DNA of 64,000 nt from Onthophagus taurus. Lineage: Eukaryota > Arthropoda > Insecta > Coleoptera > Scarabaeidae. This document shows, in pieces, positions 11,790 to 64,000 of the stretch. Position 1 is the stretch's first letter; the number at the start of each line of letters is the position of its first letter. The position numbers were made by a program, and so were the translations under genes. The notes under the pieces were generated by a model. The model saw only the letters and a program-made list of their open reading frames with translations. It was not told the DNA's origin and did not search any database. The stretch spans positions 3,348,001 to 3,412,000 of the forward strand of contig NC_091968.1 in the NCBI RefSeq assembly GCF_036711975.1. The letters run 5' to 3'.

Positions 11790-13385
11790 TTTATTTTATA
11801 TAGAATTTAAGTCTAACTAATTTCGGCCCTTGGCCATCTTCAAAGACTCTACAAATAGATTAACAACTCATCTTATCCATTTTACAAACAAGTTTCTTAA
11901 TGTTTCTTTTTCTTTTATTAAAAAAGATCACATTTCAAAGTCGAAATTATTATTAGTTAAGATTATTAGTTACTAATTCACAAAATTAATGTTTAAAAAG
12001 TTGTAATATGACATTAAGGACGAAGTGTTACAAGTTTACAGGTTAAAATTTAAGAGCGCTCTTTTTTTAACAAAAGAAATATTAAGAAACTTGGGAAAAA
12101 TTCGAGAATCATCATGTGACTTTAAAATCGACGATTTTTTTTAATCAATGTGAAATAACTCAAAAAACATGTTAAAAATAAAAAGAAAGTACTGAAAAGT
12201 GATTAACACTAGATTAACTTCAATTATAAAACTTCTATTATATGATAACTGACTTCAGGTTTAAAATGTCAACCTCAATTTTGACATATTTGTAATCTTT
12301 ATTAAAAATCCTTTAAAATGAGTACAAACACGACATATTTATCTTCAATATTAATGAAGTTATGGTCAACTTCCGGTTAAGAATGACAACGTCAATTTTG
12401 ACATATTTGTAATCGTCGTGAAAAATCCTTTAAAATGAGCCCAAATATATATATAAGCAACTTCCGGTTTGAAATGTCAACGTCATTTTGACATATGTTT
12501 AATTTTTATAAAATGTCTTAATATTTGTCACAAAAACAGAAATATAATAAAAAAGAATCAAAAATTAAGGTTGGTATTAATATTTAAAAATTAAATTGCT
12601 AACTTCGGGTTTAATGTTTTTTATTCTTTTTTGTTTTTTGAGATAAGTGCGTCATCTTTGGACTCATTTTAAAGGTTTTTTAATGAAGATGACAAAATTG
12701 ACGTTGACGTTTCAAACCGGAAGTGATTGTATCTCCATTAATATTAAAGCTAAATATGTCAAGTTTGAACTCATTTTAAAAGATTTTTTATGAAGTTGTC
12801 AAAATTAATAGTTAAAAGTTCGAACTTTTTGATTTTGTGAGATAAATGCGTCATGTTTGGACTCACTTTAAAGGTTATTTTACGAAGATTACGAATATAA
12901 CAATAAATTTAAAGTTAACATTGACAACTGATAGTTTTCTTTGCACGACTAAACCTGAATGTTTCTAGTTCTCGTTTTAGTTCAATAAAAACATATAACA
13001 TAGTAATATCTTATATGCTAACTAGCGCTACCTACCACTGCCACTAGACCGAGAACTACAAACATTCAGATTTAGTCCCACATCTCTCAAGACGGCTAAA
13101 CTCGAATGTGTAAAACTAGAACTAACAATAGACTTAGAACTAGAAAGATTTGGGTTTAGCCGTCTTAAAAGACGTACGGCTAAACCCGAATGTTTCTAGT
13201 TCTAAGTCTAGTGTTAGTTTTAGTGCAATAAAAATATGCAACATAGTGATACCTTATGCTAACTAGCGCTACCTAGCTACTGTAAAATGGATAAAATGAG
13301 AGATATTAATCTATTTGTAGAGTCTCTGAAGACGGCCAAGGGCCAAAACTAATTAGACTTAAATTCTATATAAAATAAAAAACAT
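11790..13385. mobile_element. Foldback element with about 100-bp inverted ends
   Basis: The first about 100 bp (11790-11890) recur inverted at 13285-13385, about 90% identical by eye. Both carry ggcccttggcc and a run matching ctctacaaatagatta. A candidate 8-bp duplication, acttttaa, flanks it. The interior has an imperfect direct repeat of about 125 bp around 12240-12500 (three copies of an aacttccggtt / tttgacatat module) with an inverted counterpart near 12660-12740. CTAG-type hairpin units occupy 12940-13275. No transposase is visible, so it is non-autonomous. Confidence 0.65.
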
Positions 13386-14590
13386 AAACTTTTAATTTTA
13401 TACTAACATCTAGAAAACGACACTGGTCCGAAATTGTAGGTTCATCTATTTTTTCTATTGTAGAATTTCTTCGTGTATCTAAGTGTCGGTTCTTAGACAT
13501 ATGATGCAAATCGGACTTGAAATCGTATAACGTGATTGGCGCTTAACTTTATCCTTTAAAACAAATAGTATTTTAGGTCTTTCGGTATTCTGCATTTTGT
13601 TTAAGATAAGTTACACCTTTACCTACCAGACAGCATGTAAATCTCTAAAAACGATCAAATGTCGCTTAGTCAAGTGATGTATATCGCGGCCCAATTATCT
13701 TTATAAATACGATTTTTTTTCCATATCTGTCAAAGTCAAATTTTTAGGGTTTTCGTTGGTATTACTGGTATTACCTAGGGTGCTTAAAAAATGTATGTTG
13801 TTTTACTGATTCCTAGTAACGTTTTCAATAACAAGTTAAGAGTTGAGGTTAAGAAGTTTTATATCAAAAATTTAATTTTATATAAATATGTAGATATTAT
13901 AAATAAATTCACAGCAAATATTAAAATGTTGTCAAGGTGTCAAAAATAATAAAAAATACTCACTTTTCTGAAGAAAATCCTGCTTGCTCACTTTCGTTGC
14001 AAATTTAATCGCTCGTAGGATTCGATGCAATAAATCTTACTTTTTGCATTTAAATCACCAAAAAAATAATACAAAAACTTAAATTAGTATTAAAAATGAT
14101 ACAAAAATCGGAAAAAAGGCTGTGAAGTGAAGTTAGATTTTTTTCGAAGTTTCTGTCAAATTTACCTGCCAGATTAATATAACCTAAAAATTGTTTAATT
14201 TAATTCTTTTTTTCTAGTTATAGTTTTAATCATTAATGTTATTATTATTCCTTTCCATCTTTGGGAATTTAATTTAATTTAAACAAATAATACCGGTACC
14301 AATCTGAATAAACATAAAAACACATAAAAGAACAACAGATTTCAAAGTAAATAAATTAGCAACAAGAAAGAAATAAAACGTATAATAAAAAAAAATAGTT
14401 TTAAGATATGAGATTTATAAAATATAATTGACGTGGCAAATCTTGTGAAGATGATTACATTTGTTAATCGAAACCGGTAGAGCTGAACAATTAAATAATG
14501 CATCTCAACACACATACATACATAGATGTTTTTAATTCAAATTAAACTAGTTTTAATTGTTATTCAGCACTAGGTTGTTATATATTTCTT
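13386..14590. other. AT-rich DNA without recognisable genes
   Basis: No coding, RNA or terminal-repeat signal could be supported. A minus-strand AAAAG|GTGAGT-like string near 13965 resembles a splice donor, but no exon can be built on it. Confidence 0.4.
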
Positions 14591-14594
14591 ACCC

Positions 14595-15660
14595 TACCTT
14601 TCTTAAGACGGCTAAACCCGAATCTTCTAGATCTAGTGTTAGTTTTACTGACAGTATTAGTGCAAAACTATAACCAACTCTGGTATTGCACTAGCACTGT
14701 CAGTAGAACTAACGCTAAACTTAGAACTAGGAACATTCGGCTTTAGCAGTATGTTTCTTAAGACGACTAAACCCGAATCTTTCTAGTTCTAAGTCCAGTG
14801 TTAGTTAATTTTGCATTAACTCTTACTAGAACTAACACTAGACCTAGAATTAGAATCATTCGGGTTTCTTGGCCGTCTTGAGAGACGTGCGGCTAAACCC
14901 AAATGTTTCTAGGTCTAGTGTTACTTCTAGTTTTGCACTAGCACTATCAGTAGAACTAACACTAGACTTAGAACTAGAAACATTCGGATTTAGCCGTACG
15001 TTTTTTAAGACGGCTAAACCCGAATGTTTCTAGTTCTTAGAATAGTGTTAATTCTAGTTTTACATTAGTACTGTTAGTAGAACACAAGACCTAGAACTAG
15101 AATCATTCGGGTTTAGCCGTCTTGACAGACGTGCGGCTAAACCTGAATATTTCTAGTTCTAGGTCTAGTGTTAGTTCTAGTGACAGTGCTAGGTAGCGCT
15201 AGACATCACTATGTTGCATATTTTTATTGAACCAAAACTAGAGCTAAAATTAGATCTAGAACTAGAAACATTCGGATTTAGCCGTACGTTTTTTAAGACG
15301 GCTAAACCCGAATATTTCTAGTTCTAAGTTCAGTGTTAATTCTTGTTTTACATTAGTACTGTTAGTAGAACTAACACTAGACCCTAGAATCATTCGGGTT
15401 TAGCCGTCTTGAGAGACGTGCGGCTAAACCCGAATATTTCTAGTTCTTGGTCTAGTGTTAGTTCTAGTAACAGTGCTGGGTAGCGCTATGTTGCATATTT
15501 TTATTGAAGCAAAACTAAAGCTAACATTAAATCTAGAACTAGAAACATTCGGATTTAGTCTCTCAAGACGGCTAAACCCGAATGATTCTAGTTCTAGGTC
15601 TAGTGTTAGTTCTAGTTTTAGTCGTTATTCAGCACGTGTGTTGTATATTTTTATTGAACT
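14595..15660. repeat. CTAG-rich hairpin repeat block
   Basis: This is the longest early block of the dispersed hairpin family. Arms read gacggctaaacccgaatg, then alternate CTAG-containing words (ttctagttctagg, tctagtgttagttctag), followed by a loop and the arm in reverse complement. Successive arms meet at a second dyad (cgtctt / aagacg). About seven arm pairs can be followed. The open frame at 15455-15838 that starts in it is fortuitous. Confidence 0.85.
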
Positions 15661-16399
15661 AAAACTACTATCCGTGCGAAAAGTCAAGGCCCCTCACTTT
15701 AGACATCGATATCTTCACAACTGTTCGATAAAAAAAATTGCGACAAAGTTTGTTGTAATCACTGAACATTTCTACGTAACATATGTCAATTTGAAAATGT
15801 TCGGATCCACGGTTTTCTTTTTATCGCGAGGTAAATGAAAAAAGTACCCGATTTTTTACCGTACCGGCAACTTTGCGATTTTTTTTCTCGAAAACTATCG
15901 CACGAAAAAATTTGAATTTTGAACAGTTGGTAGCCTGATGTGCTCTTAATGAGTGGCATATTTTATTTTTTCAATATTCCATACAGTTTCGCGGAAAATC
16001 GCGGTGTAGTAAGACGCCGTTATGTCGAAAACGGCTGAGTGGATTTCCTCGCGGATTTCACCAAAATATGTCGATTGTCGGATTCTGTTATCAATTTTTC
16101 AAAATTAGAGCTCCCTAATTTTTTAAGAGCGATTTAATGGAATTACAAATTAAAGAGAAACAGATATAAGCTCTGCGGGGTCACCGCGGTACCGCCCAAT
16201 CGGAACAGATGGTGCGTCTCAGACAGGACGTCGCGCCTTATTTCTTTATGGAGGTAAGATAAAGGCGCGACGTACTATTATCTTTGCCGTTTCAAAGCTA
16301 TCTTATTCAATAATTGTATATCAACTCATTAAATTTAATAATGACATTCTATTTATCTCAAATCAATTAACATTTCCACTTCAATAACTTTTTGAATGA
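15661..16399. other. Unassigned region downstream of the second protease
   Basis: 15664-16180 is less AT-rich and has a repeat-like look (runs such as tcgcggaaaatcgcgg) but no transposase. At 16270-16345 there is a copy of a short module (ctttgccgtttcaaagct ... ttattcaataattgt) also found near 23066, 26652 and 34905. Confidence 0.4.
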
Positions 16400-19300
16400 T
16401 TAATTATGTACGAAAACGATTAGTAACAATAAACATAACACGAATGGAGTTTTATATCGCATATTATCATCAGCTTTACTTCGTAGAGATAAATAATTCC
16501 TGGGAAAGAAGTAGTTTGAGTGATTAATAATAATGACATCTTTGTAAATTAAGTTACTTACCCTTGTAAAGTGTTGTAAATCCATGGTTTATAATAAAAA
16601 ACGTTGGTGTAAACTCCCGGTATTTCATTCCCACATCCAATTCCCCACGAAACAACTCCAATTTGTACACCAGACAGGATTAATGGTCCCCCGGAGTCGC
16701 CCTAAAATTAAAAAAATTACTTTTACTATAATTTAATTCGAATTTTAATTTATTTTTTGATGTTTATAAAATAAATTAATAAAATTTTCTTAAAAAATAT
16801 ATTTATTTTATACCAAGTTCACATTTGAATACATTTTTTTTAACAATTAAAACCCTCCAAGTGCTTCTTCAATAAACTTCTTATACATACACATAAAACA
16901 CACAATAAACGCTTCAAAATGAAATATTTCTTTACTTCCTTGTTTCATTCTATGTTCGTAAAACGCAGCTTTCTCAACAACTTGACTTTTAAGTTGCATA
17001 TCGCAATTTTTCACCAATTCCTCCACTAAAGTCTTAAAAATGACATCAGAAGGTATCTCGTGGGTAATCAATTCGTACAACATCCCTCGTATTTCACCCA
17101 ATTTCTGCACGGTTTGATCACGAGTAATCTTTTTGGCAACTTCACGTATAAAAGTTAACCAATCGGGATCTAAAATTTGTTGATTTTCTTGGAAAGGATA
17201 TTGTTCAACCCGGCATGATTCTAAAATTAATAAAGCCCTGCGTAAATTTCTGTTTGATTTAATCGCGACTTTTTTAGCAAACTCAACGGGGACGTTTAAA
17301 CCTTCTTTTTTACAGGTTATTTGTAAAATTGAAACGATTTCTTCGATTGTTGGGGCTGGAACTCTTATTGAAAGACACCGACTTCTTATAGCTGGAGTAA
17401 CTTGGGACGTTGAGTTACAAGTTAAAATTAATCGACAATTTGCGATATATTTTTCCATCGTGCGACGTAAAGCGTGTTGGGCATCTTTAGTTAATTGATC
17501 AACATCTGTTAATACGATCACTTTAAATTCTTTTTGACCGTTTATATCTAATTGTTGAGATTGCGCGACGTTTTTAATCAAATCCATCACTACCACACGA
17601 TCATAAATACCCACATCAGAAGGATTTACTTCTATGTGATAATTACTACTAACAGTCATTATTTCAAGCTTTTTGTTTGAAGGGGTTGTAAATTCCATTT
17701 GTTCCATTCGTAAACGATCTACTCCCGGTCCGTATAACTCTTTTAATAGGCATATAATCCGGGTTTTTTTGCCTGCCCCAGAGGGGCCGTACACTAATAA
17801 ATGGGGAAAATCGCCTTGTTGGGTTAACCGCTTGAGGTTTTGAGCTTGTTCTTTATGGAAATCCAATTTTTGGAAATCTTTCGGGCGATATTTATCTACC
17901 CAAAGACTCATTTTCACTTTTTAAAGTAATAAAATCCGAATGTTTTCAAAAAAAAGTTAGGTTAGGTGTCTATAAATTAAAGATGGCAACCTTCAAAAAT
18001 GAAATAAAACTGTTTAATCGTGAAAAATCTTTTAAATTTAGCTTAGCTTTTTAATAAATCCGTTAAGAACTTAATTATTTCTTATAAATTAACGATTATA
18101 AACACAAATTAATTAAATTTAGAAAGGAAATGAAAAGTCACGTTTATACAGTGTAATTTTTCAAAGCTATTTTTTGGCGGGAGATTTAAAACCAGAGAGG
18201 ATTTTAAGTAAAGTGTAGTTACGAATTTAATTACTTTTTTGTTTAAACATAATAAAAACCTCACTTTGTCCCACATAAAATGCAACATGTTAATATACTA
18301 TATTAATAATATAATATAATAAATCATAACGTATACAGGTGTTTCATAATATGTGCGCAGGACTTAAGGATATAGCTTGTCCAAAAATTTGAAAAAAACT
18401 TTCTATCAACTTACCCTCTAAAATGCACCATATTCGAGATACAGGGTGTTGAAATTTAATAAAAAAAATTCATTTTTTGCGAATATTTTCGGAACTGTTT
18501 ATCGTACAGAAAACAGCTTTTGTAAGCATATTCTACTCGTAATAAGCTATCACATCCTGATACCTCGGATCAATAATATACAGTGATATCGGTTTACGAA
18601 CAGTGGCTAAATTAACAAAACAAAGGTCTCAAGTATTAGAAGAAGTAGAAAAATTGTTGTTAGTTTGGATTAATGAAAAAAGACTTAAGGGAGATAGTGT
18701 AAGCGAGGCTTTTATATGTGCAAAAGCTTTAGAACTTTATCAATATTTATTGTCGAACCAGCCAAGTACAAGTGATACTAGTAGTGTCATGGAATTTAAG
18801 GCTAGTAGGGGATGATTCGAAAAATTTCGTCGACAAACTGGAATTCATAGTGTTGTTAGGTAGAGGCGGCTAGTTCGGATCAAAAGGCAGCAAAAAAATA
18901 TGTGGAGGACTTTCGTAAATTTATAGACTTAGAAGGTTACGTCTCGAATCAAATTTTCAATTGCGATGAAACTGGGCTATTTTGGAAAAAAATGCCAAAG
19001 AGGACATATATATCCAAAGAAGAAAAATCACTACCTGGCCACAAAGCAATGAAGGATAGGCTTACATTATTATTGTGTACAAATGCAAGTGGAGATTTCA
19101 AAATTAAACCACTTTTAGTATACCATTCTGAAAATCCGAGTGTTTTTAAGAGCAATAAAGTAATAAAAAGTAAGCTGCCAGTAATGTGGAGATCAAATTC
19201 TAAGGCTTGGGTTACCAGAATATATTTTAGAGAGGTCAAATGACGTTTTTGCTCCTTCTGTTAAAACTTATCTTGAAGTAAAGAAGCTGCCCGTTAAATG

Positions 19301-22300
19301 TGTGCTACTTATGGACAATGCTCCTGCTCATCCTCCAAATATTGAAGGAGACCTTGATCCTGCATACAATTTTATAAAGATCAAATTTCTGCCATCTAAC
19401 ACCACATCCTTATTACAGCCAATGGATCAGCAAGTAATTTCAAACTTTAAGAAGCTATATACGAAAGATCTTTACAAACCACTGCATACAGTTTATTGAT
19501 AATGCCTGGAACAATATCTCTTGTCGTACATTGCAGTCAGCATGGAGAAAACTCTGGCCAACTTCTGTGTCTGACAGACATTTTAACGACTTTCAGGAAG
19601 AAGCAGATGTGATACAAGACATTGTCAACATTGGCATAAGTTTGGAGTTAGAAATCAACGAGGATGATGTGGCGGAGCTCCTGCAGGACCATAGCCAAAA
19701 ACTCATTCCAGAAGAACTTATGGAATTACAACTTGAGCAGGTGAAAGCTGTGGAGGAGGAGCATTCAGCAGAAAAACATGAGGAACCAGATGCTTTAACT
19801 GCTGATATAAAAGATATTTGCAATAAGTGGAATGATGTGCTTTTATTCCACAACATCACCCTGACAAAACTGTTACCGGTAGAGCAGTGGATATTTTATA
19901 TGATAATGTAATGGCACATTTTCATAAAATTCTCATAAATGTTTGTTATAGACTCCAAATTAAACATGATTGCACACTACAGGAAGGTACAGGCGGAAAT
20001 GTCTAAACGGGCGAAATATTTTAGATCTCTAAGTTATAAAGACAAAGGTATAAACACGAAGACAGCGATGCAAATATATAAGAGCATATGTAGACCATTG
20101 ATCGAATATGGCAATAGTGTATCAATGAATCCATCCAGAAAAACGGGAGACATAACTGACAAAGCGGAAAGAAAATGCTTGAGGATTATCTCTAAGATTA
20201 GGCACCCAAACAACCCATTACACAACGTAAGAAACAAGACTTTATACGAAATGACTGGTATTGAACCTATAAGACTAAGACTAGACAGACTACGGAAGAA
20301 ATTTTTAGACAACAGAAACAATTATGAAAAAATACATAAATTATGTTTAAAGAGACAAGCAGCACAGATGGAAGTTGATCAGAGGAAGACAATATCGGAA
20401 CTTTTTCATAAATACTTAGCTGATAATGAATAATATTGTTAAAATTTTTTGTTGTAATTATAGCCAGCGGAAAGACCATTAGGTCGATAGCTGAAATAAA
20501 GATTTATTTCTCTCTGTTTGTTATATATTTGTTACATATGTGGTTTTATGTTTTTTTGATAATTACATCAACTACTATATTTCGCTTTCTGTATTGTTTC
20601 AATAAATAAAACCATTAAATGTTGAAACACTTTTCCATAACAATAGGAAAAATTGATTTGGATCACGAACTTTTCGGTTCACGAACAAGGTCGGGGAACG
20701 GATTATATTCGTAAACCGAGGTATCGCTGTAATATGTTATTACGTATGATATAATGATATTATGTAATTTGACATTACATTGTGTCCGTTATAGCTCAAT
20801 AAAAATATACAACAATCCAGCGCTGAATAACAAATAAAACTAGACTAATACTAGCACTAAAACTAACACTAGACCTAGAAACATTCCGTTTAGCTGTACC
20901 TCTCTTAAGACAGCTGGTTGGTGGTAGGTAGCATAAAATATTACTATGTTGCATATTTCTATTGAACTAAAACTAGAACTAACACTAAAACTAGAAACGT
21001 TCGGGTTTAGCCGTGCGTCTTCAGGCGGCTAGTGTTAGTTCTAGTTTTAGACTATCGCAAGAACTAACATAAGACCTAGAACTAGAATCATTCGGGTTTA
21101 GCCGTCTTGAAAGACGTGCGGCTAAATCCGAATGTTTGTAGTTCTCGGACTAGTGTTAGTTCTAGTGGCAATGGTAGTAGGTAGCGCTAGTTAGCATAAA
21201 ATATTACTATGTTGCATATTTTTTATTGAACTAAAACTAGTACTAACACTGGCACTATCACTAGAACTAACACTAGAACTAGAATCATTCATGTTTAGCC
21301 GTCTTGAGAGACGTGCGGCTAAACCCGAATATTTTTAGTTCTAGGTCTAGTGTTAATTTTAGATTTACACTATCATTATAACTAACACAAGACCCAGAAC
21401 TAGAATCATTCGGGTTTAGCCGTCTTAAAAGACGTTCGGCTAAATCCGAATGTTTCTGGTTCTCGGTCTAGTGTTAATTCTAGTGGCAGTGGTAAAAAAT
21501 AGAGTACTTATAATGTACAAAATTATAAATTATTTGCAACAAATAAATTAATAATATGTATTACCTGACAAGCATCTCTTCCTCCGTTAACATATCCAGC
21601 ACAAATAGTTCTATGGTTGCGGAATAACCCACGATATTTAGGTTGAATGTAAATAGCCCCACATGTTACTTCGGAAACAACAGGAACGGTTACACTTAAC
21701 AAGTCATTAGAAAACTTGTTCTGAAATGGTATTAAAAATAATGAAATAAATGTTTAATAACACTAAAAATACTTTCTTCATTTGATTTTGTAATACCCCA
21801 ACCAATTACTGTACAATCTTTATCTTCGTATGTATCAAAATGGATTGGAAATGTTGCGAATTTTATTGTAGGGCCTAATTCAAACGGCATATTGATCTGA
21901 AAAGATTTATGATACATTAAAGGATTGAGTTTGGTTTGTTTAATTTACCGCTATTAAACCTATATCGCAGGAGTTGTTATAAAAGTTGAATAAGGGGTGT
22001 GGGATTACAACCATTGCATTTCGTTCTTGTGCGGTTAGATCGTTTAGTTTTGAGACTCCCATTCGTAGTTTGAATACTCTATGATGTGATGGAGTATTAG
22101 TTCTTGGGTCTAATTGAATAAATTAACATTAATTGGTAACATTCATGAAAATATTTATTTTACTCAATAAGCAATGAGCAGCTGTTAAAACCCAAAGAGG
22201 CGCAATATAAGATCCACCACACCAATGATTTCCCCTCATCAGAATATTTACCTAAAAAATTACAATGAGGATGTGTTTTTTTAAATAACAATTTTACCAT

Positions 22301-22553
22301 ATAAGGATAATGTTTGATGTGGGTTGGTTTTCCCCCGATGATCCGAGGTTCTGGTCGAAATGTCATGTTTATTTGTACCGGTGTTGGTTCAGTACTATTC
22401 AATTCATCTATGCTGGGAGTTACTAATTTTCCATACGGGATTTTATCAAATTCACCTACAAAAGAAATGCAAAAAGAACGAAATAACTTCAAAATAATGT
22501 TTATACCTACCCATTTGTATCAATAAGATCAAAAACAAGAAATTTAAGATCAT
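16400..22553 (-). CDS. Serine protease (S1A, trypsin-like) with hydrophobic C-terminal tail
   Basis: Eight exons on the minus strand: 22553-22511, 22455-22298, 22251-22164, 22109-21949, 21896-21773, 21720-21565, 16701-16562 and 16499-16400. They encode a signal peptide ([12 protein letters not shown]), a pro-region, the activation site RIIGG, His in LTAAHC, Asp in CDIGLIA and Ser in GDSGGP. An Asp six residues before the serine predicts trypsin-like specificity. The last exon ends in a hydrophobic run ([16 protein letters not shown]), suggesting a membrane or GPI-type anchor. The exon 5/6 junction does not keep phase: the donor after GAAGAAA is phase 1, the acceptor frame is phase 0. A one-base error or lesion is likely. 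The 4.9-kb intron 6 contains RFC3. Confidence 0.82.
16847..17911 (-). CDS. RFC3: Replication factor C subunit 3 (clamp loader, 38 kDa)
   Basis: AAA+ subunit of the RFC complex that loads PCNA onto primer-template DNA in the nucleus. The 354-residue frame is uninterrupted and starts [13 protein letters not shown], as in other RFC3 proteins. The codon two positions upstream is GTG, so the ATG at 17911 is chosen. Walker A reads GPSGAGKKT, the region of Walker B reads [11 protein letters not shown], and [16 protein letters not shown] corresponds to sensor 1 and the SRC motif. The length equals the family norm. It has no intron and lies inside intron 6 of the protease, on the same strand. Being intronless raises the possibility of a retrocopy, but the frame is fully intact. 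Confidence 0.96.
   Translation of the reverse strand: MSLWVDKYRPKDFQKLDFHKEQAQNLKRLTQQGDFPHLLVYGPSGAGKKTRIICLLKELYGPGVDRLRMEQMEFTTPSNKKLEIMTVSSNYHIEVNPSDVGIYDRVVVMDLIKNVAQSQQLDINGQKEFKVIVLTDVDQLTKDAQHALRRTMEKYIANCRLILTCNSTSQVTPAIRSRCLSIRVPAPTIEEIVSILQITCKKEGLNVPVEFAKKVAIKSNRNLRRALLILESCRVEQYPFQENQQILDPDWLTFIREVAKKITRDQTVQKLGEIRGMLYELITHEIPSDVIFKTLVEELVKNCDMQLKSQVVEKAAFYEHRMKQGSKEIFHFEAFIVCFMCMYKKFIEEALGGF
17912..18580. other. RFC3 upstream region and repeat fragment
   Basis: The first 100-200 bp must include the RFC3 promoter. From about 18270 the sequence is repeat-like: tgtcccacataaaatgcaac recurs near 59728, and tacaggtgtttcataat / tacagggtgttgaa resemble TA-flanked non-autonomous element ends. 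No coding signal is seen. Confidence 0.4.
18603..19912 (+). pseudogene. Tigger-type transposase (CENP-B HTH plus DDE), broken
   Basis: Plus-strand fragments in order: a HTH_CENPB-like part ([19 protein letters not shown], 18603-18815); the DDE core with [15 protein letters not shown] and [10 protein letters not shown] (18902-19243); [11 protein letters not shown] and [14 protein letters not shown] (19302-19499); and an acidic C-terminal part (19531-19911). The catalytic Asp residues in CDETGL and MDNAPAH are present. Stops and frameshifts near 18815, 19243 and 19499 make it inactive. Confidence 0.88.
19925..20515 (+). mobile_element. 5'-truncated non-LTR retrotransposon 3' end
   Basis: An open frame at 19939-20433 encodes 164 residues typical of the C-terminal part of non-LTR polyproteins ([47 protein letters not shown]). 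The reverse transcriptase core is absent. The 3' end is A/T-rich (gaaataaagatttatttc). It interrupts the Tigger transposase frame (just after [12 protein letters not shown] in the alternate frame), so it is the younger insertion. The clade is not assigned. Confidence 0.75.
20815..21500. repeat. CTAG-rich hairpin repeat block
   Basis: Alternating sense and antisense arms (gtctagtgttagttctag / ctagaactaacactagac) are separated by loops that include the longer loop class with gcgctagttagcataaa and atgttgcatattttt. It ends about 60 bp before exon 6 of the minus-strand protease, inside intron 6. Confidence 0.85.
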
Positions 22554-22735: not shown

Positions 22736-22739
22736 TAAG

Positions 22740-23260
22740 AGTGTTAGTGTAAAACTAGAACTAACACTAGAACTAGAAACATTGGGGTTTAGCCGTCTTT
22801 AGAGACGTGCAGCTAAACGATATGATTCTAGTTCTAGGTCTTGTGTTACTTCTAGTGATAGTGCTAGTGTTGTAAAACTTGAACGAACACTAGACCTAGA
22901 ACTAGAAACATTCGGATTTAGCCACACGTCTCTCAAGACGGCTAAACCTGAATGATTCTAGTTCTAGGTCTAGTGTTAGTTCTAGTTATAGTGTAAGTGT
23001 AAAATTAGAACTTCAGTGTTAGATTGTTGTTTATTTTTATAGAACGAAAACTAGAACTAACTAATTATCTTTGTCGTTTCAAAGCTAGCTATCTTATTCA
23101 ATAATTGTGTCTCGGCACAGATATTGAATTTAATAATAGTGAGTCTCTTATGACGGCTAAACCTGAATGATTCTAGTTCTAAGTCTAGTATTAGGTCTAC
23201 TAACAATCTAGTGTTGTTTCCATGCGGGATTGTTGACAGATTGTGACTGCTCTTACATAG
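22740..23260. repeat. CTAG-rich hairpin repeat block
   Basis: About three arm pairs with short loops (for example gatagtgctagtgt). The block ends with actaacaatctagtgttg then tttccatgcgggatt, the same exit sequence seen near 26795-26825. Confidence 0.85.
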
Positions 23261-23389
23261 CAAATGCAGATGCGTACATATTTCTACTCCTACTACCTAC
23301 ACTGCTATAATTCAGCTTTTCCTGAAATAATAACAAAAGAGGCAAAAATAAATTGTAAAAAATGGGAAAGAGAAACATCAAAAATATGA

Positions 23390-24664: not shown

Positions 24665-25735
24665 AAAATTATACAGAGTGTTTTGGTGACTCGGGAACAA
24701 ATTTAACCACATATACTAGAGTGAAAATGATGACGATTCATGTAAAAAAAATTAGTAAAAGTCTTCAAATTTCAAAGATACAGGCCATCAAAGTTAGGAA
24801 ATTTGAACACATTTTTCCAAAAATCTTAAACACTATTTACAGTAAACCGCTGAAATTTGGTACAATATAAATAAATGTGATGTAAAATCGTTAGGCAATT
24901 TATGAGTTTTATTGGTCCGCGGGAACAATGCCATACAGGCTGTTCCTAAAGTTTGTTTGCTCAGTACATTTTTATTCTATCATAACCCTACATTTATTTT
25001 TGCAGTTTCTGATAATAAATTTAGTTTAGAAACTTTTATTACTCTTAGATAATATTGATAAAAATCACCGTTTTCGTGTTAAATGTAAAAATGTTGGGTT
25101 CCGATTTCAATAATAGTACTAAAAACAAGAAATCTAAGTTTTTGAACATTTCCTTTAGTATTTTTTATTACTTGTCTTGTACTTATGTACTTTTTTTATT
25201 ATTCGTGTTAGTGTTGTCTTTTTTTTGTTGATTTTTAATTTATTATTTTTGGATTCTTTTATTAAACCAACTAAAACAACTTAAAAATGTGATTTAGCTA
25301 AATCTACACTTGGACATGTTGCATACCTAATAGTTATGACAGTTCAGTTCGATTTTAGTGTTATTCGGAGCCTAACATTTTTGCATTTAATACGGAAACG
25401 GTGGCTTTTATCAATATTCTCTAATAGTGATAAAAGTTTCTTAACTAAATTTATTATTAGAAAATGCAAAAATAAATGTAGGGTTATGATAGAATAAAAA
25501 AGTTCTGAGCAAACAAACTTTAGGAACAGCCTGTATAGCATTGTTCCCGCGTACCGATCCAACTCAAAAACTGCCTAAGGATTTTATGTGATATTAGTTT
25601 ACACTGTACCAAATTTCAACGCTTTACCATAAATAGTGTTTAAGATATTTAGAAAAACGTGTTAAAATTTCCTAACTTTGATGGACTTTGATGTTCCCTG
25701 AGTCACCGAAACAGCCTGTATAGTTATATAGTTTT
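24665..25735. mobile_element. Large foldback element with about 400-bp inverted arms
   Basis: The left arm (about 24665-25095) and right arm (about 25350-25735) are inverted copies; examples are ggtgactcgggaac / gttccctgagtcacc and acaggctgttcctaaagtt with its complement near 25522. They surround a T-rich core of about 250 bp. No transposase is present. The open frame at 25344-25562 lies in an arm and is fortuitous. A fragment of the same family lies near 11650-11760. Confidence 0.75.
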
Positions 25736-26034: not shown

Positions 26035-26815
26035 AACAGTGCCGTCTTTAGAGACGTGCGGCTAAACCCAAATTATTCTAGTTCTAGGTATAGTGTAAGT
26101 TCTAGTTTTACACTTGCTCTGTCACCAAAACTAACACTATACCTAGAACTAGAATCATTCGGGTTTAGCCGTTTTTGGAGACGTGCGGCTAAACCCAAAT
26201 GATTTTATTTCTAGATATACTGTTAATTCTACATAGTAACAGTGCTAGTGTAAAACTAGAACTAACACTAGACCTGAAACGAGAAACATTCGGGTTTAGT
26301 CGAAACTTTCTAGTTCTAAGTCTAGTGTTAGTTCTAGTTTTAATTGTTATGCAGCGCTAGATTGTTGTATATTTTTATTGAACTAAAAGTAGAACTAACA
26401 CTAGACCTAGAACTAGAATCATTCGGGTTTAGCCGCACGTCTCTAAAGACGGCTAAACCCAAATGTTTCTAGTTCTAGGTCTAGTGTTAGTTCTAGTTTT
26501 ACACTTGCATTATTACTAAAACTAACACAAAGATCTTTAGAGACGCACGGCTAAACCCTTAAACTTTATAGTTCTAGGTCTACTGTTAGTTCTAGTTTTA
26601 ATCGTTATTCAATACTAGATTGTTGTATATTTTTATTGAACGAAAACTAAAACTAACTATCTTTGTCATATCAAAGCTAGTTATCTTATTCAATCAACAC
26701 AGATATTAAATTTAATAATAGTGAGTGTCTTAAGACGTCTAAACCTGAATGATTCTAGATCTAATTTTAGTGTTAGTTGTACTAACAATCTAGTGTTGTT
26801 TCCATGCGGGATTAT
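26035..26815. repeat. CTAG-rich hairpin repeat block
   Basis: Five or more arm pairs. Loops include the class containing gttattcagcgctagattg and tgtatatttttattgaac. The short module ctttgtcatatcaaagct (near 26652) lies in its last loop, as in the 22740 and 33985 blocks. The block ends in the same tttccatgcgggatt exit sequence as 22740-23260. Confidence 0.85.
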
Positions 26816-29929: not shown

Positions 29930-30834
29930 CGTGTATTCAACACGTGCGAAATCGAATTTGAATAAAAATTAATTAAATATTATATTTACTTTAAATAATT
30001 ATGAAATAATTAGTTATTAATTAAATAAAATTTTTCAACTTTATTTCTTGTACTAAAAAATTGAACGCGTGTGGCGCCATCTCTTGAGGATATTTTGAAA
30101 TTATTCAGCTAAGAACCGAACCACTACAATACAGGTTGGATTGGATTTATATATAAAAGCTCCAACCACAGAATAACTGTTTGGTGCCACTATGTGGCTC
30201 CAATTAACGTTCCGACTGGTTGGGGATTCCTCAAATGCAATTACACCTGTCAAATAATACCGCCACATTTGAATTTGGCATACTGCATCATATGACGTGA
30301 GATTGCATCTGACGAGCTTCCAACCAGTTATAACGTTACCTGAATCAAAGCTATAATGTCAATTATAATCTAATTAATTAATCATACCATTATTACTTTA
30401 TTTATAATCGCTATAATCTTACCGAAAAAACACTGTACTTGTTTTACTTGTGACAACTTAGTGACGTTTTCATTTGTCAATTTTGAACAAACTTCACTTT
30501 TAAAATACTTAGCGGCAAATTTAAAAATATAAAACGAATTGGAATTTATACTTTTTAAATTAACAAAATAATACTGGTAATAATTGTTATTGCTGTCTCT
30601 TATCATTCCCACTATTAATAACAAAATTGTTAATTAAATTATTTCAGTATATGTAGACACTAATGCCCTCTTACTGGGGGATTTCGACATACAATCAGTC
30701 CCAAGTTCTCCTATCAAAAATACCTGGGGCTGCTATTAATCATTAGTTGGACTAATGAACTAATGATTGAACCTTCTGTAAGGAAGGTAAAATCTAATAG
30801 GACTGCTACACCCTAAAACCAAATGTCTTTAACT
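29930..30834. other. Unassigned DNA with one MITE relic
   Basis: No gene is supported; the minus-strand frame at 30624-30382 has no recognisable features. A weak inverted repeat (taacgttccgactggttgg near 30200, complement near 30325) is present. Near 30785-30820, aatctaataggactgctac matches the terminal repeat of the MITE at 54379-54700 and is probably a decayed relic. Confidence 0.4.
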
Positions 30835-31080
30835 TTAGGTCTAGTGTTAGTTCTAGCATTAAATAACTATAAAACTGAAATTGACACTAGACCTCGAACG
30901 AGAAACATTCTGGTTTAGCCGTGAGTCTCATAAGACGGCTAAATCTGAATGATTCTAGTTCTAGTATTAGAATAATCTAGTATTGAATAACAATTAAAGC
31001 TAGAACCAACACTAGACCAAGAAGGAGAAATATTCTGGTTTGGCCGCGAGTGTCTTAAGACGGCTAAAGCTGAATGTGAA
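30835..31080. repeat. CTAG-rich hairpin repeat block (short, diverged)
   Basis: Two degraded arm pairs of the hairpin family (gacggctaaatctgaatg, attctagttctagtatta) directly precede the piggyBac remnant. Confidence 0.75.
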
Positions 31081-33984: not shown

Positions 33985-35080
33985 ACCTAGAGTTAAAACT
34001 GGAATTAACACTAGACCTAGACTGGTTTAGACGTGAGTCTTTTAAAGATGGCTAAACCTGAATGATTCTAGTGTTAGTTCTAACGCTAGTATTAATTCTT
34101 ATTTTAGTTGTTATTCAACATTAGATTGTTGTACATTCTTCATTAAACTAAAACTAGAACTAACACTAAACCTAAAACTAGAAACATTCGGGTTTAGCCA
34201 TACGTCTCATAAGACGGCTAAACCTGAATGATTCTAATTTTTGGGTCTAGTGTTAGCTCTAGTGACAGTGATAATGTAAAACTAGAACTAACACTAGAAT
34301 TAGAACTAGGAACATTCGGGTTTAGCCGTCTTAAGAGATGTACGACTAAACCCAAATGATTCTAGTTTTAGGTATAGTGTTAGTTCTAGATTTTTCAGAC
34401 AGTGTTAGTGTAATACTAGACCTAGAACGTTTCCGGTTTAGCTGTGCATCTGAAAACGTCTTTTAATTGTTGTGCAGCGCCAGATTGTTGTATATTTTTA
34501 TTAAACCAAAAGTAGAACTAACACTAGACCAAGAACTAGAATCATTTAGCCGTCTTATGAGACGCTCGGCTAAACCCGAATGTTTCTAGTTTTAATGTTA
34601 GTTCTAGTGTAAAACAAGAACTAACTGTATACCTAGAATTAGAATCATTTGGGTTTAGCCGTCTTTACAGACGTGTGGCTAAACCCAAACGATTCTACTT
34701 CTAGGTATAGTGTTAGTTCTACATAGTAACAGTGTTAGTGTAAAACTAGAACTAACACTAGACCTAGAACTAAAAAAAAAATCGGGTTTAGCCATGCGTC
34801 TGAAGAAAGTTTCTAGTTTTAGGTCGTTAGTTCTAGTTTTTGTCGTTATTCAGTGCTAGATTGTTGTATATTTTTATTGAGCGAAAACTAGAACTAACTA
34901 ATAATCTTTGTCGTTTGAAAGCCAGGTATATTCAATAATAATTATGTATATTAAATGTAAGAATAGTGAGTCTCTTAAGATGGCAAAACCTGAATGTTTC
35001 TAGTTCTTGGTTTAGTGTTAGTTCTAATTTTAATTGTTATTCAACACTAGATTATTCTTTAATATATCAAAATATATAGG
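33985..35080. repeat. CTAG-rich hairpin repeat block
   Basis: About eight arm pairs. Several loops carry the gttattcagcgctagattg / tgtatatttttatt class. A copy of the ctttgtcgtttgaaagc module is near 34905. The block decays towards 35080. Confidence 0.85.
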
Positions 35081-36573: not shown

Positions 36574-40948
<4,375 letters not shown>

Positions 40949-43098: not shown

Positions 43099-57986
<14,888 letters not shown>

Positions 57987-59625
57987 AAAAAAAAGGGGGA
58001 AAAATCTTTTTTTCTTTTTGTTTTTTATTTTTGTTTAAAATTTTCGGGCTGGAACCCGATTATAAAATTATAACCCCGTCCAAAAATGTGCTCTCTCTGT
58101 ATTTATCTCTCTCACTCTATAATACATAAAAAAATGTTTGTGGAGGAAATGATTTTATAAAAATGAAAAGAAGAAAAGATGGGAAAATCAGGTTAGAAAA
58201 TGATAGGAAAGGTTTTTTTTGGATTGCATCTGTGATATTGTTAATATCATTTAATTTTTTTGGATTAAAAGGTAAGGTGATGATGGAGGATTTATTACAA
58301 AATATATGGATTGATTTTTTTTTTGTTTGAGGAAAATTTAAGTGCTCAATTTTAACTCTAATAATTTAAATAGAATGAGGAAAAAGCGCGAGAAATGAAA
58401 ATAAAATAAATAAACTAACATAAATGTAGATTTTAAACAAACGTGTAAAGTACAAGTTTTTTCTTTTTTTGTAGTATATTTGTGTACTAAAAAATTAAAC
58501 TGGAGTTATCTTTAATAAAAGAGTTGATCGAATAACGTTGTACAGAAACTATAAATATTTTTTAAAAAACAATAAATTATTATGAGAAAAAGAAAATGAT
58601 GTGAACATTATGGTGCTATGTTATCATAGATTTTTAAAATGATTTTAAGAAAAAATACACTATTTATGTATACACATTGTGATTTTATTTATTTATGAAT
58701 ACTTAAATCATTTTGTGTATGTATGTGATAAAAAAATATTGGACAAATTAACACGATTAATAAATTATTAACAGCAAAGAAAAAAAAGTTATTTTCTTTT
58801 TGAAAAAAATAAAGTGTAAATACCATGTAAAAATACTCTGATTAGGATACTAATTTTTTTGGTTGTAAATAAACATAAAATGGTATCCGTTCGATTTTTT
58901 TTCTAGATTGTAACGAATATTTAATGTAATTTAGAGATCTAATTTGCTAATTTTTATTTGTTGCACAAAATCGATAAAAATACAAAAATAAAAAAGTATA
59001 AGTAATAAATATTAAAAAAATGAAAACATAAAACTATTTGCGAACACTGCCTTAACATTTTGACAATAATCTATCTCCTAAAAAATATTAAAAAACTTAT
59101 TTTAGTTCTTTATTTTTTTAAAGAGAAATTTGTATAGCTTTTAAATTCCTTTAAAAGTTAATAAACAATTCTTTTCCCCCCAATTCAATCCCACAAACTA
59201 TTTTTTCTAATCTTAATATTTGTAATAACGCATAATTTTAGCCTAAGTTATGTACTAGTTCGTCAATTTCTAGTCTATTTTTTTTTTGTTTTTTTTTAAG
59301 AAAACCGATTCGAGAACCGCAGTTCTTTTTCAAAATAAACGGGAAATTTATTATTTTTTATTATTATTATTATTCTATTTCGGTTGTTCCTGTCGTGTTT
59401 CGCTTTTCAAATGAAAAAAAAACTACTAAGTAAAGAATAAAATAAAAATAAAGAAACGAAAAAAACGGTTCAAAACGTTCGAGTGTACCGAACAAAAACG
59501 AAAAATTGTTTCAGTGCCTTTAATCGTAGAGAGCTGTTCATTGTAAATGTGTGTACAGAAAAATAATTATTTACTTTTCAAAAAATAAAGGGTTTTTATT
59601 TAATTTTTTTCCTAGTTTCTGAAAT
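57987..59625 (+). other. LATS 3' UTR
   Basis: Very AT-rich DNA with no open frame and no transposon insertion, in contrast to the introns. Candidate poly(A) signals AATAAA occur near 58808, 58869 and 59585. The last is followed by a T-rich stretch and is a plausible distal end. Confidence 0.5.
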
Positions 59626-59979
59626 CGTGGAAGTCCCATCCTCATTCCATATTATACCGGAAATTTCATATAACTCGCAATATATGAATCCAGTAATCAT
59701 AGTTGCGAAACTGCTATGCACTTGCACTGTCCCACATAAAATGCAACATAGCTTATAACACAGCAATTTGTAAAATGATAAGTATATTGTAAAAAAACAA
59801 ACAATTACACATATACAGGATGTTTAGAAATTGGTGGATAATGTACAAGTAGCGACATTCTTCGATCGACTCTGAATCAAAAATCTGAATATTAAAATGT
59901 TCTACTATGTTGCCAAACGTGTTTTCGAAAACTGTTATTAAAATTTGACTTTTGCATAGTACTTAACGACCGTCAAAAC
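59626..59979. other. Unassigned repeat-like DNA
   Basis: It shares tgtcccacataaaatgcaac with 18268-18287 and contains atacaggatgtttagaaattgg, a style typical of TA-flanked non-autonomous ends. No gene. Confidence 0.4.
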
Positions 59980-60620
59980 GATAGTTTTTTACGATTTTAC
60001 AGCGTTAACCAAAAACAAGTTCCAATTGTGACAACCACAAGGAGTAAAGAATGTTCTTGAGTTAATATTCGGGATTCTTGTTTTAACCCCTTTACTTACA
60101 CCGATCATGTTCGCTCCATTATTGTATCCGTTACACATCGACAGTTTTGGATATCTAAGTTGTGTTCTTCTAATTTTTTTTTAATATAGAATCTTAAATA
60201 CTCCCCCGTTGTTTTAACGACAGCCATAAATCCAATGAAGTTTTTTTCAATGTGACCAGTAGAAATATTGCAGTATCGCAGTATGATACTCATTTGTTCA
60301 GTACGTCTTACATCTCTGGTGCAACCAAGCATGATGGCATAATATTATGCTTGTTTTATTCTGTGCATAATTTCTCCAATAACTGAATCAGACGTTAATA
60401 CAATTAATTTATTTTGGATATCATGACTCAAATGATGTGAACAAGTTATACCAATGTTTTAGGGACTCTCTAATCAATTTTTCATTTTCCATATTTATCG
60501 TTAGTCCATGTTTAATTCCTTTGTATAGTTCCACCCATTTAAACATGAACTCAATGTATCCTTGAGTCTGGTCGTGACTTTGCAATATTCTTCATAAATC
60601 TTTCCAGTCACAACATACTT
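59980..60620 (-). pseudogene. hAT-like transposase remnant (DUF4371 region)
   Basis: Minus-strand text from 60332 downward reads EQMSIILRYCNISTGHIEKNF, IGFMAVVKTTGEYL and LEEHNLDIQNCR. After a frameshift NNGANMIGVSKGVKTRIP and CGCHNWNLFLVNAVKS follow (to about 59990). This order is that of DUF4371 proteins related to hAT transposases and ZMYM-type genes. Upstream fragments to about 60600 are weaker. It is broken. Confidence 0.72.
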
Positions 60621-60639
60621 CTTTTATTATTTGTACCTT

Positions 60640-60925
60640 TATACCTAGAACTAGAATCATTTGGTTTTAGCTGCAAGTCTCTAAAGACGGCTAAACCCGA
60701 ATGATTCTAGTTCTAGGTATAGTGTTAGTTCTAGTTTTACACTTGCACTGTCATTAGAACTAACATTAGACCTAGAACTAGAAACATTAGGGTCTCATAA
60801 GACGGCTAAAGCCGAATGATTCTAGTTCTAGGTCTTGCGTTAATTCTGGTAATAGTGTCAGTGTAAAACTAGAACTAACACTAGACCTAGAACTAGAAAG
60901 TATCGGGTTTAGCCGTGCGTCTTCG
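60640..60925. repeat. CTAG-rich hairpin repeat block
   Basis: Two arm pairs with short loops (tttacacttgcactgtca; gtaatagtgtcagtgtaa) and the hinge tctctaaagacggc. Confidence 0.85.
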
Positions 60926-61189
60926 TCTTCAAACTTTAGAAAAAATTAATATTTTGAACTTGGGGATTACATAAACCATAAAAAAGATGAGCAAATCACA
61001 CGACATTTGGAAAACTGACCTTTAACCATAACTATCATAAACTCGTTTCTAAAAAGTATATTATGGGAATTCCCTAAAAGTTTGACAATTTTCTCGTTTA
61101 AATGGAGTTCAATGCTATCTTTTGATACAAGTATTACATACTTATGCACCACGCAAAACAAATATGTAACAGCTACACATTTAGCTGCA
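60926..61189. other. Spacer between hairpin blocks
   Basis: A 64-codon minus-strand frame (61161-60967) has no recognisable domain. No other structure is seen. Confidence 0.4.
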
Positions 61190-61330
61190 TTCTAGTTTTA
61201 GGTTTAGTGTTAGTTCTAATTTTACATTAGCACTGTTAGTATGTAGAACTAACACTGTACCTAGAAGTTCCTAGAACTAGAATCATTTGGGTTTAGCCGC
61301 ACGTCTGTAAAGACGGCTAAATCTGGGTAT
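61190..61330. repeat. CTAG-rich hairpin unit abutting the satellite
   Basis: A single arm pair ends at gacggctaaatctgggtatc. Within it the sequence switches directly into the 153-bp satellite, so the satellite sits inside or beside a hairpin unit. Confidence 0.8.
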
Positions 61331-63148
61331 CCGGAGCATAATACAGAAAAACTTTAACTACAAAAGTTGTAGCAAATTGTACTCTTAACACAATGGTCTG
61401 TAACATTTTTGCTCCCAGATGCATCAATGTGGAGAATTTTTCAAAAATATGAAAATTAGAAGAGTGTTAAAAGAAATCGGCATCGGGAGCATAATACAGA
61501 AAAGCTTTAACTACAAAAGTTGTAGCAAACTTTACCATTAACACAATGGTATGTAATATTTTTGCTTCCAGATGCATCAATGTGGAGAATTTTTCAAAAA
61601 TATGATAATTAGAAGAGTGTTAAATAAAATCGGAATTCGGAGCATAATACAGAAAAACTTTAACTACAAAAGTTGTAGCAAATTGTACCCTTAACACAAT
61701 AGTCTGTAACATTTCTGCTCCCAGATGCAGCAATGTGGAGAATTTTTCAAAAATATGAAAATTAGAAGAGTGTTAAAAGAAATCGGTATCGGGAGCATAA
61801 TACAGAAAAGCTTTAACTACAAAAGTTGTAGCAAACTTTACCATTACCACAATGGTTTGTAACATTTTTGCTCCCAGATGCATCAATGTAGAGAATTTTT
61901 CAAAAATATGAAAATTAGAAGAGTGTTAAAAGAAATAAAACTTTTACTACAAAAGTTGTAGCAAATTGTACCCTTAAGACAATAGTCTGTAACATTTCTG
62001 CTCCCAGATGCATCAATGTGGAGAATTTTTCAAAAATATGAAAATTAGAAGAGTGTTAAAAGAAATCGGTATCGGGAGCATAATACAGAAAAGCTTTAAC
62101 TACAAAAGTTGTAGCAAACTTTACCATTAACACAATGGTATGTAATATTTTTGCTTCCAGATGCATCAATGTGGAGAATTTTTCAAAAATATGATAATTA
62201 GAAGAGTGTTAAATAAAATCGGAATTCGGAGCATAATACAGAAAAACTTTAACTACAAAAGTTGTAGCAAATTGTACCCTTAACACAATAGTCTGTAACA
62301 TTTCTGCTCCCAGATGCAGCAATGTGGAGAATTTTTCAAAAATATGAAAATTAGAAGAGTGTTAAAAGAAATCGGTATCGGGAGCATAATACAGAAAAGC
62401 TTTAACTACAAAAGTTGTAGCAAACTTTACCATTAACACAATGGTTTGTAACATTTTTGCTCCCAGATGCATCAATGTAGAGAATTTTTCAAAAATATGA
62501 AAATTAGAAGAGTGTTAAAAGAAATCGGTATCGGGAGCATAATACAGAAAAGCTTTAACTACAAAAGTTGTAGCAAACTTTACCATTAATACAATGGTTT
62601 GTAACATTTTTGCTCCTAGATGCATCAATGTAGAGAATTTTTCAAAGATATGAGAACTAGAAGAGTTAAAAAAAGTCGGTATCCGGAGCATAATACAGAA
62701 AAACTTTAACTACAAAAGTTTTAGGAAATTGTACCCTCAACACAATAGTCTGTAACATTTCTGCACCCAGATGCATCAATGTGGAGAATTTTTCAAAAAT
62801 ATGAAAATTAGAAGAGTGTTAAAAGAAATCGGTATCGGGAGCATAATACAGAAAAGCTTTAACTACAAAAGTTGTAGCAAACTTTACCATTAAAACAATG
62901 GTTTGTAACATTTTTGCTCCCAGATGCATCAATGTAGAGAATTTTTCAAAAATATGAGAACTAGAAGAGTGTTAAAAAAAGTCATCGGTATCCGGAGCAT
63001 AATACAGAAAAACTTTAACTACAAAAGTTGTAGCAAATTGTACCCTAGCACAATAGTCTGTAATGAATTTTTCAAAAATATGAAAATTAGAAGAGTGTCA
63101 TTATACAGAAAAACTTTAACTACAAAAGTTGTAGCAAATTGTACTCTT
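61331..63148. repeat. 153-bp satellite array with alternating monomer types
   Basis: The landmark ggagcataatac recurs at 61333, 61486, 61639, 61792, about 62078, 62230, 62383, 62535, 62687, 62840 and 62996, plus truncated copies. Each monomer contains the dyad actacaaaagttgtag. Two types differ in the next segment: A has aactttaccattaacacaat, B has aattgtacccttaacacaat. They mostly alternate, forming an about 306-bp dimer. A block of about four monomers (from 61486) is repeated from 62078. Short open frames in the array are by-products. Confidence 0.92.
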
Positions 63149-64000
63149 AACGAATGATTCTAGTTCTAGGTATAGTGTTAGTTCTAGTTTTACACTTATA
63201 CTTTCACAGAACTAACATTAGACCTAGAATTAGAAATATTCGGGTTTAACCGTGCATCTCATAAAACGGCTAAAGCCGAATGATTCTAGTTCTAGGTCTT
63301 GTGTTAGTTCTAGTGATAGAGCTATTGCAAAACTAGATTCAACACTAGACCAAGAACTAGAATCATTCGGCTTTAGCCGTTTTATGAGATGCACGGTTAA
63401 ACCCGAATATTTCTAATTCTAGGTCTAATGTTAGTTCTGTGAAAGTATAAGTGTAAAACTAGAACTAACACTATACCTAGAACTAGAATCATTCGTTAAG
63501 AGTACAATTTGCTACAACTTTTGTAGTTAAAGTTTTTCTGTATAATGACACTCTTCTAATTTTCATATTTTTGAAAAATTCATTACAGACTATTGTGCTA
63601 GGGTACAATTTGCTACAACTTTTGTAGTTAAAGTTTTTCTGTATTATGCTCCGGATACCGATGACTTTTTTTAACACTCTTCTAGTTCTCATATTTTTGA
63701 AAAATTCTCTACATTGATGCATCTGGGAGCAAAAATGTTACAAACCATTGTTTTAATGGTAAAGTTTGCTACAACTTTTGTAGTTAAAGCTTTTCTGTAT
63801 TATGCTCCCGATACCGATTTCTTTTAACACTCTTCTAATTTTCATATTTTTGAAAAATTCTCCACATTGATGCATCTGGGTGCAGAAATGTTACAGACTA
63901 TTGTGTTGAGGGTACAATTTCCTAAAACTTTTGTAGTTAAAGTTTTTCTGTATTATGCTCCGGATACCGACTTTTTTTAACTCTTCTAGTTCTCATATCT
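62646..64000. repeat. Large perfect palindrome centred near 63323
   Basis: Every base compared from 62646 to about 63285 is mirrored as the reverse complement from about 63361 to 64000 (positions sum to 126646). This includes rare variants such as ttttaggaaattgtaccctc and gcacccag. The central about 75 bp is an imperfect CTAG hairpin. The right arm runs off the window, so the full length is unknown. Two identical 77-residue frames (62924-63157 plus, 63489-63722 minus) are a consequence. Confidence 0.93.
63150..63500. repeat. CTAG-rich hairpin units at the palindrome centre
   Basis: Three nested arm pairs, with cgaatgattctagttctagg at the left and its complement at the right. The innermost loop is tgatagagctattgcaaa. 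Here the hairpin family forms the turning point between oppositely oriented satellite arrays. Confidence 0.88.

Follow-up and report, generated by a model that had tools for sequence, protein, structure and literature searches.

The literature consulted already describes satellites that are palindromic, others that are dispersed in euchromatin or linked to foldback elements, and inverted duplications that start at hairpins. Here we compare these systems with a CTAG-rich, hairpin-forming repeat family found in 64,000 nucleotides of the genome of the scarab beetle Onthophagus taurus (contig NC_091968.1, positions 3,348,001 to 3,412,000; this whole stretch is referred to as the window). The closest known systems are the palindromic or euchromatin-dispersed satellites of Tribolium. 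In Tribolium madens, TmSat1 and TmSat2 form megabase regions thought to be pericentromeric, and the TmSat2 monomer is 704 bp long with inverted parts of ~300 bp (PMC13081366). The family described here resembles them in having palindrome-like monomers (as in TmSat2), arrays that turn around, dyads at several levels and defined inversion sites; it differs, in a comparison made by description only, in its ~127- and ~163-bp monomers and in its short arrays, which lie among genes in the window. The TCAST satellites of Tribolium castaneum have monomers of 294-1771 bp, occur mainly as single repeats and number 68-384 dispersed elements per family (PMC5844308). They share with our family the position of satellite-like repeats near genes and the similarity of some copies to parts of non-autonomous transposons, and TCAST7 has long inverted halves, whereas here there are arrays and tens of thousands of arms.

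Two further comparisons concern mechanism. In the Tetris/TIR-220 system of Drosophila virilis, tandem repeats form the terminal inverted repeats (TIRs) of an element with target-site duplications (TSDs) of 8-10 bp (PMC4079207). There, as here, a TIR element is linked to a tandem repeat that is also found outside the element; unlike in Tetris, the array here is internal to its carrier. In yeast, foldback inversions and origin-dependent inverted-repeat amplification (ODIRA) were shown experimentally to produce inverted duplications that begin at inverted repeats or single-strand hairpins (PMC7467729, PMC4689423), whereas the like process proposed here is read from a single natural locus where the repeat family occurs. 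The strings "127 bp", "153 bp" and "palindrom" have 0 occurrences in the passages searched of a paper on Tenebrio molitor satellites (PMC13192020), and the sequence words of our family and its neighbours, the only words covered, did not occur in the literature text searched.

The family has a high copy number and two dyad axes, its units and junctions are flipped in places, one copy sits in a TIR transposon present at many sites, three blocks have an edge in common, and a kilobase palindrome is centred on one of its arm hairpins. A plausible scenario, and the one that we consider probable, is that the family has been multiplied and reshuffled by arm-to-arm DNA pairing and template switching, together with other routes, and without a protein of its own. 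The arms would thus act by pairing as DNA and not as RNA, and the folding of this DNA in the cell is likewise something that we infer.

A palindromic repeat in short, dispersed arrays

The original prediction, made from the letters of the window, was of a dispersed hairpin repeat family with a design of its own, in at least eleven blocks where a forward arm, a loop and the inverted arm follow one another. This is borne out: an arm lies at ≤5 mismatches within 200 bp of all eleven positions then named, and the forward arm, loop and inverted arm do alternate. Each block is a short array of the same satellite-like tandem repeat family, which has a palindromic monomer. The arms (~46 nt) are made of CTAG-like hexamers and the loops are asymmetric. 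The commonest units measure 111 nt (54 of 144) or 147 nt (30 of 144), and with a spacer of 16 nt they give a monomer that is an imperfect palindrome of ~127 or ~163 bp. A second dyad had been predicted where units meet, and 127 of the 138 junctions in the window and the fetched loci indeed have 31 nt from core to core between an inverted and the next forward arm. The double-dyad order is present in the fetched copies from elsewhere, though it is automatic for a tandem palindrome: two dyad axes arise wherever palindromes are arrayed head to tail, and they need no special explanation.

Counts in the window and in the genome set the family well apart from chance. CTAG words number 321 in the window against 126-151 in 10 shuffles, as the description "CTAG-rich" implied. 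The 18-nt arm gacggctaaacccgaatg, searched on both strands of the window, gave 12, 27, 45, 62 and 80 matches at 0, 1, 2, 3 and 5 mismatches, and first-order shuffles of the window (20 of them) gave means of 0, 0, 0, 0.05 and 2.2. The genome searched (290.8 Mb) holds 12,201 + 12,161 = 24,362 arms at ≤2 mismatches and 7,115 + 7,072 = 14,187 junctions at ≤3 mismatches, with 0 matches for either control. By the same counts the window is ~8 times as dense in arms as the genome average, and extrapolation from its 45 arms and ~6.7 kb of array, estimated from block edges, suggests that arrays make up ~1% of the genome. Three fetched loci outside the window (L056-L058) are tandem arrays with a repeat of mostly 127 bp, and L056, at 19 units, is the longest array read. 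The 127-bp arrays are head-to-tail, homogenised tandem monomers, as in a satellite; for arms with the same loop, identity is 0.935 in the same array and 0.850 between arrays.

Loop flips and a 4.1-kb palindrome

Of 142 units, 130 reached the required loop score, and these fall into three loop types, S (80), T (47) and Q (3). The asymmetric S loop served as a marker of orientation against the junction. Among confident loops, the sides that agree with and oppose the junction number 94 and 29 for S, 49 and 1 for T, and 2 and 2 for Q, so that the loop runs opposite to the junction on 32 of 177 unit sides in the window and fetched loci. Head-to-head units make up 11 of the 62 with both junctions readable, and in L058 every unit past the first whose junction can be read is of the opposite kind. 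Genome-wide, unit sides in standard orientation number 1,896 + 2,580 and flipped ones 389 + 288, or 677 of 5,153 (13%); these counts, from four consensus patterns at ≤3 mismatches that differ in arm letters, are lower bounds. At the edge of the young array in L056 (~2890-2950) we also saw by eye a small inverted duplication of a junction, which may be a second trace of fold-back.

The original prediction listed blocks at 61190 and 63150. Arms are present at both, but the two belong to one 4.1-kb palindrome that runs past the window and was read on the window joined to fetched neighbouring DNA. Its arms, the central loop aside, are the same from ~60984 to 63256 except for 1 mismatch and a gap of 589 bp in the right-arm satellite, and they take in ~200 bp of flanking DNA that belongs to neither array nor satellite. 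Past the palindrome, from 65072 onward, an exact 77-nt copy of 63217-63293 is followed by a hairpin with an inverted loop. In addition, 63276-63429 is the exact reverse complement of 65072-65225, where the loop is inverted relative to that of the central hairpin. These two identities overlap in 18 nt of arm, as an arm-to-arm switch predicts, and the return junction of the palindrome shares 1 nt.

We favor a fold-back model for this locus, in which the identities are observed and the order of the steps is inferred. The end of a strand or a stalled fork would reach a unit, and one arm would anneal to the other; synthesis would then turn back, the loop would be copied inverted, and a second switch would lead back to the original strand. 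At the palindrome, the growing strand, having copied the left arm, would anneal to the complement of the right arm, copy the loop and the left side backwards for ~2 kb, and switch back, by way of 1 shared nucleotide, to a position ~100 bp ahead of the hairpin. Small events of this kind would flip loops and junctions within arrays and large ones would make palindromes; along with hitch-hiking in a transposon, local duplication and unequal exchange, template switching would multiply and reshuffle the family.

A bolder version, which we hold only tentatively, is that this is a "self-inverting" satellite: the arms of its monomer would be recurrent sites of template switching, which would flip loops and junctions genome-wide and seed kilobase palindromes and palindromic amplicons of neighbouring DNA, both the abundant 153-bp satellite and flanking sequence. 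If true, such a satellite would record fold-back replication in an animal germ line in a natural form that can be counted. The abundance of the family, its arms and its asymmetric loops make loop orientation relative to the junction an internal marker for counting inverted template switching or inversion across the genome, and a process studied in yeast could become testable in the germ line of an animal.

The TIR carrier and other routes of spread

Block 1 lies within a TIR element of ~2 kb, the carrier; here a satellite-like repeat is carried by a non-autonomous DNA transposon. In the window its right TIR is found at 13660-13692 with 3 mismatches, and no left TIR was found at the block-1 copy; several fetched loci have conserved TIRs at both ends. 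The TIR (GGACCGCGTTATGCATCACTTGACTAAGCGACA) has 462 genome matches and a near-equal second pattern has 464, at ≤3 mismatches (control 0). Among 37 loci fetched around the best matches to block 1, a sample that over-represents the carrier through the choice of query, 34 have a 147-type unit with the junction after it (35 such units), and 32 of those 34 keep the left flank of the carrier. The earlier statement that the family has no constant target duplication and matches no known superfamily is partly wrong: the block at 12940, one of eleven, sits in an ordinary TIR transposon.

The flanks of the carrier are mostly AATT, and since AATT pairs are palindromic they are uninformative on target duplication. 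By eye, informative 4-bp direct matches are AAAT, in one insertion common to copies embedded in hAT-like elements, and ATTT in L025; the flanks do not match in L011, L023, L030, L046, L051 and L052. A 4-bp target duplication is suggested by the flanks, not proven. hAT elements have a TAGGGATGCA-type TIR and an 8-bp TSD, and some carrier copies sit in an outer element with hAT-like ends, a class assigned from ends and duplications. Six copies of this outer element have both ends; by eye, the 8-bp repeat is exact in L013, L019, L021 and L037, matches in 6 of 8 letters in L015 and is absent in L031.

An alternative that we consider unlikely is that the family is a foldback-type DNA transposon, in which the arrays would be long, repeat-laden TIRs and an unseen transposase would spread the family. 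In its favor, a TIR element with AT-rich flanks and subterminal inverted repeats encloses block 1, as it does the unit at 32 of 34 fetched loci, and foldback elements, Tetris among them, have tandem repeats in their TIRs that later grew into satellites (PMC4079207). Several observations argue otherwise: (i) the array is placed in the interior of the carrier and does not form its TIRs; (ii) the carrier holds only one of the eleven window blocks, with one more (block 8) beside a 127-bp piece; (iii) array ends vary, by eye, in the blocks read, and no common terminus was seen in them; and (iv) at the cut-offs used, Pfam gave no transposase in 15 frames of ≥90 amino acids from three TIR-bounded stretches of 6.2-6.6 kb, a subset of five such pairs noted. 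These stretches hold Copia-like pieces, a RasGEF_N frame and, as weak Pfam matches, pieces of Penelope-like reverse transcriptase and GIY-YIG. The Penelope-like and GIY-YIG pieces lie between two carrier TIRs in L051 (1610-5795), as does a piece without a Pfam match that looks Tc1-like. The RasGEF_N frame lies between carrier TIRs in L053 (4553-4981), where the TIRs may belong to separate carrier copies around a host gene.

Hitch-hiking in the TIR transposon partly accounts for the spread of the arrays, in one of the eleven window blocks (block 1), and local duplication partly accounts for it in three (blocks 4, 5 and 7). Among the best 40 of 1,787 candidates, the right 226 bp of block 4 had three long matches, all within the window, with 100, 85 and 81% identity.

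Weighing arm pairing as DNA against recombination and RNA

Several points weigh against multiplication by template switching together with these other routes. Only one event is resolved base by base. Among the inverted repeats of ≥300 bp listed there is no second kilobase palindrome centred on an arm; the others reflect the self-symmetry of arrays or have axes hundreds of bases off the arms, as at 25234 in the window and in L026 and L053. The palindrome is near-perfect and could be mimicked by a chimera that arose at the hairpin during sequencing or amplification; recombination between inverted arms is another possible source of flips. As for the seeding of many separate sites, nine of the eleven blocks have no carrier match and block 8 adjoins only the 127-bp carrier-like piece, the array ends read vary, and no empty site of the carrier was found in a genome search at ≤3 mismatches.

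We think it rather improbable that the 4.1-kb palindrome is an artefact of assembly or amplification and that the other flips are due to gene conversion or ordinary recombination between inverted repeats rather than to template switching. The near identity of the palindrome arms would fit such an artefact, and recombination between inverted arms also flips loops. However, the right arm lacks 589 bp of satellite and one further base differs between the arms, and the 77-nt duplicate and inverted loop on the far side are not given by a simple turn-around of a read.

The original prediction also held that either strand would fold into chained hairpins, which could feed small interfering RNA (siRNA) or PIWI-interacting RNA (piRNA) pathways. 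The folding was confirmed for five pieces, whose single strands gave better folds than shuffled sequences did (z -6.8 to -13.2); two 111-nt folds have minimum free energies of -58.8 and -66.1 kcal/mol (z about -13). For a pairing test, units were oriented by their loop and the left arm was compared with the inverted right arm. In the 111-nt class (54 units, 14 arrays) the match was 0.866 within the same unit, 0.865 with other units of the array and 0.865 with other arrays; the 147-nt class (30 units, 27 arrays) gave 0.764, 0.772 and 0.764, respectively. When each array contributed a single unit, 26% of permutations in the 111-nt class and 35% in the 147-nt class did at least as well as the observed pairing. 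Positions altered in both arms slightly exceed chance and few are complementary, with 11 in the 111-nt class (8.1 expected; 5 complementary; 272 altered in one arm only) and 4 in the 147-nt class (2.3 expected; 1 complementary; 96 in one arm only). Upkeep of pairing by compensatory change is not seen in these 54 + 30 units. From these comparisons the arms appear to decay independently despite very stable folds, and the absence of arm co-evolution argues against a conserved role as hairpin RNA.

At least three loop types do exist, as had been claimed, but the accompanying idea that loops are swapped while arms are conserved did not hold. Within a class, arms have diverged about as much as loops: 0.059 vs 0.071 for the 111-nt class and 0.033 vs 0.026 for the 147-nt class. 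Free exchange of loops between arms is not supported either: arms of units with different loops are barely more alike within arrays (0.805, 52 pairs) than between them (0.800). The same was seen outside carriers, in a subset of 81 units from 17 arrays that excludes block 1, the carrier-anchored T units of four loci and unlisted loci, where the match within and between arrays was 0.819 vs 0.803 for S-T and 0.827 vs 0.819 for Q-S (5 T and 3 Q units). Between arrays of this subset, arms match at 0.846 for S-S, 0.803 for S-T and 0.720 for T-T (7 pairs); judged by these values, the rule that arms follow loop class is true of S only. The lack of arm co-evolution, together with the unsupported free swapping of loops, weakens the small-RNA idea.

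That the arrays are hairpin-RNA loci for siRNA or piRNA pathways with pairing under selection is accordingly very doubtful, since the stable folds (z about -13) are set against arms that match no better within a unit than between arrays, double changes slightly above chance of which few are complementary, a window that holds no Rfam family at gathering score, and microRNA (miRNA) family matches that lie far below that score.

Hammerhead-like motifs and neighbouring features

The Rfam scan at gathering score covered the whole window and found nothing, and permissive scans gave matches, miRNA families among them, that all lay far below this score. The hammerhead core reads CUGANGA...GAAA. A hammerhead retrozyme was considered and rejected for the arm, which reads CUCAAGA...GAAU. 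The ~102-bp inverted repeats of the carrier hold a candidate hammerhead motif, CTGAAGA-TGGCC-AAG-GGCC-GAAAC, whose core resembles that of the hammerhead; it has an extra base before stem II and matches no Rfam model. No Rfam hammerhead match was found in the related copy of the ~102-bp carrier repeats that was tested. Compared with the whole carrier, the junction plus arm had a similarity score of 14, attained by 9 of 500 shuffles; compared with the carrier motif alone, a comparison picked after the likeness had been seen, it scored 13, attained by 1 of 2000. The likeness of junction plus arm to the hammerhead-like carrier motif is suggestive only. Five copies of a CTGATGATGGYTTATNANCYGAAACCGRTT-like motif (at 45176, 45328, 48264, 52666 and 52877) are similar to the hammerhead-like motif of the carrier, and may be the ends of Penelope-like elements.

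Table 1. Positions of the arrays, the carrier, the palindrome and related features (window numbering)
Feature	Position	Strand
Carrier, a TIR DNA transposon with block 1 inside (nhmmer: 11485-12940 on the left, 13288-13702 on the right)	11485..13702	+
~102-bp subterminal inverted repeat of carrier, motif CTGAAGANGGCCAAGGGCC	13281..13381; mate 11788-11886	+; mate -
Block 1: array (147-nt type unit, junction, more units) inside TIR carrier	12940..13320	+
Block 2: array, junction orientations alternating (head-to-head units)	14595..15670	
Block 3: array	20815..21497	
Block 4: array; right part (23020-23231) similar to 26616-26813 and 34857-35026	22740..23231	
Block 5: array; right part common to blocks 4 and 7	26035..26813	
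Block 6: short array	30815..31080	
Block 7: array; right part common to blocks 4 and 5	33990..35045	
Carrier-like 127-bp piece left of block 8, resembling an internal carrier piece	37436-37562	
Block 8: regular direct array, S and T units mixed, junctions all the same way	37613..38800	+
Block 9: short array	60640..60925	
Large palindrome: flanking DNA, array, 153-bp satellite, array, then all inverted	60983-65071 (window part to 64000)	
Block 10: array piece in left arm of large palindrome	61185..61325	
Left-arm array of the 153-bp satellite; its inverted counterpart starts at 63583 and runs past 64000	61329..63063	+
Block 11: array at centre of large palindrome	63150..63495	
Central hairpin; midpoint is the palindrome axis, 63323	63265-63381	
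18-nt arm stretch CCGAATGATTCTAGTTCT, overlap of both identities, proposed site of the inverted template switch	63276..63293	+

The 153-bp satellite that adjoins blocks 10 and 11 is joined to a CTAG arm and mirrored within the 4.1-kb palindrome; a 19-nt word of it has 85,413 genome matches at ≤1 mismatch (control 0). To the right of block 8, at 39086-39857, lies a diverged tandem repeat with AGCAGTATCTAGTCTT-type units of ~20, 40 and 81 bp. Reading frames near the blocks resemble RFC3, TRM61/GCD14, a Rab-type GTPase and a LATS/NDR-type kinase. Transposase pieces of other families were matched to DDE_Tnp_1_7 at 8183-8629 (-), to DDE_1 at 49727-50194 (-) and, weakly, to DDE_3 at 55167-55673 (+). 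The frame at 50773-51396, to which Pfam gave no match, looks mariner-like by eye.

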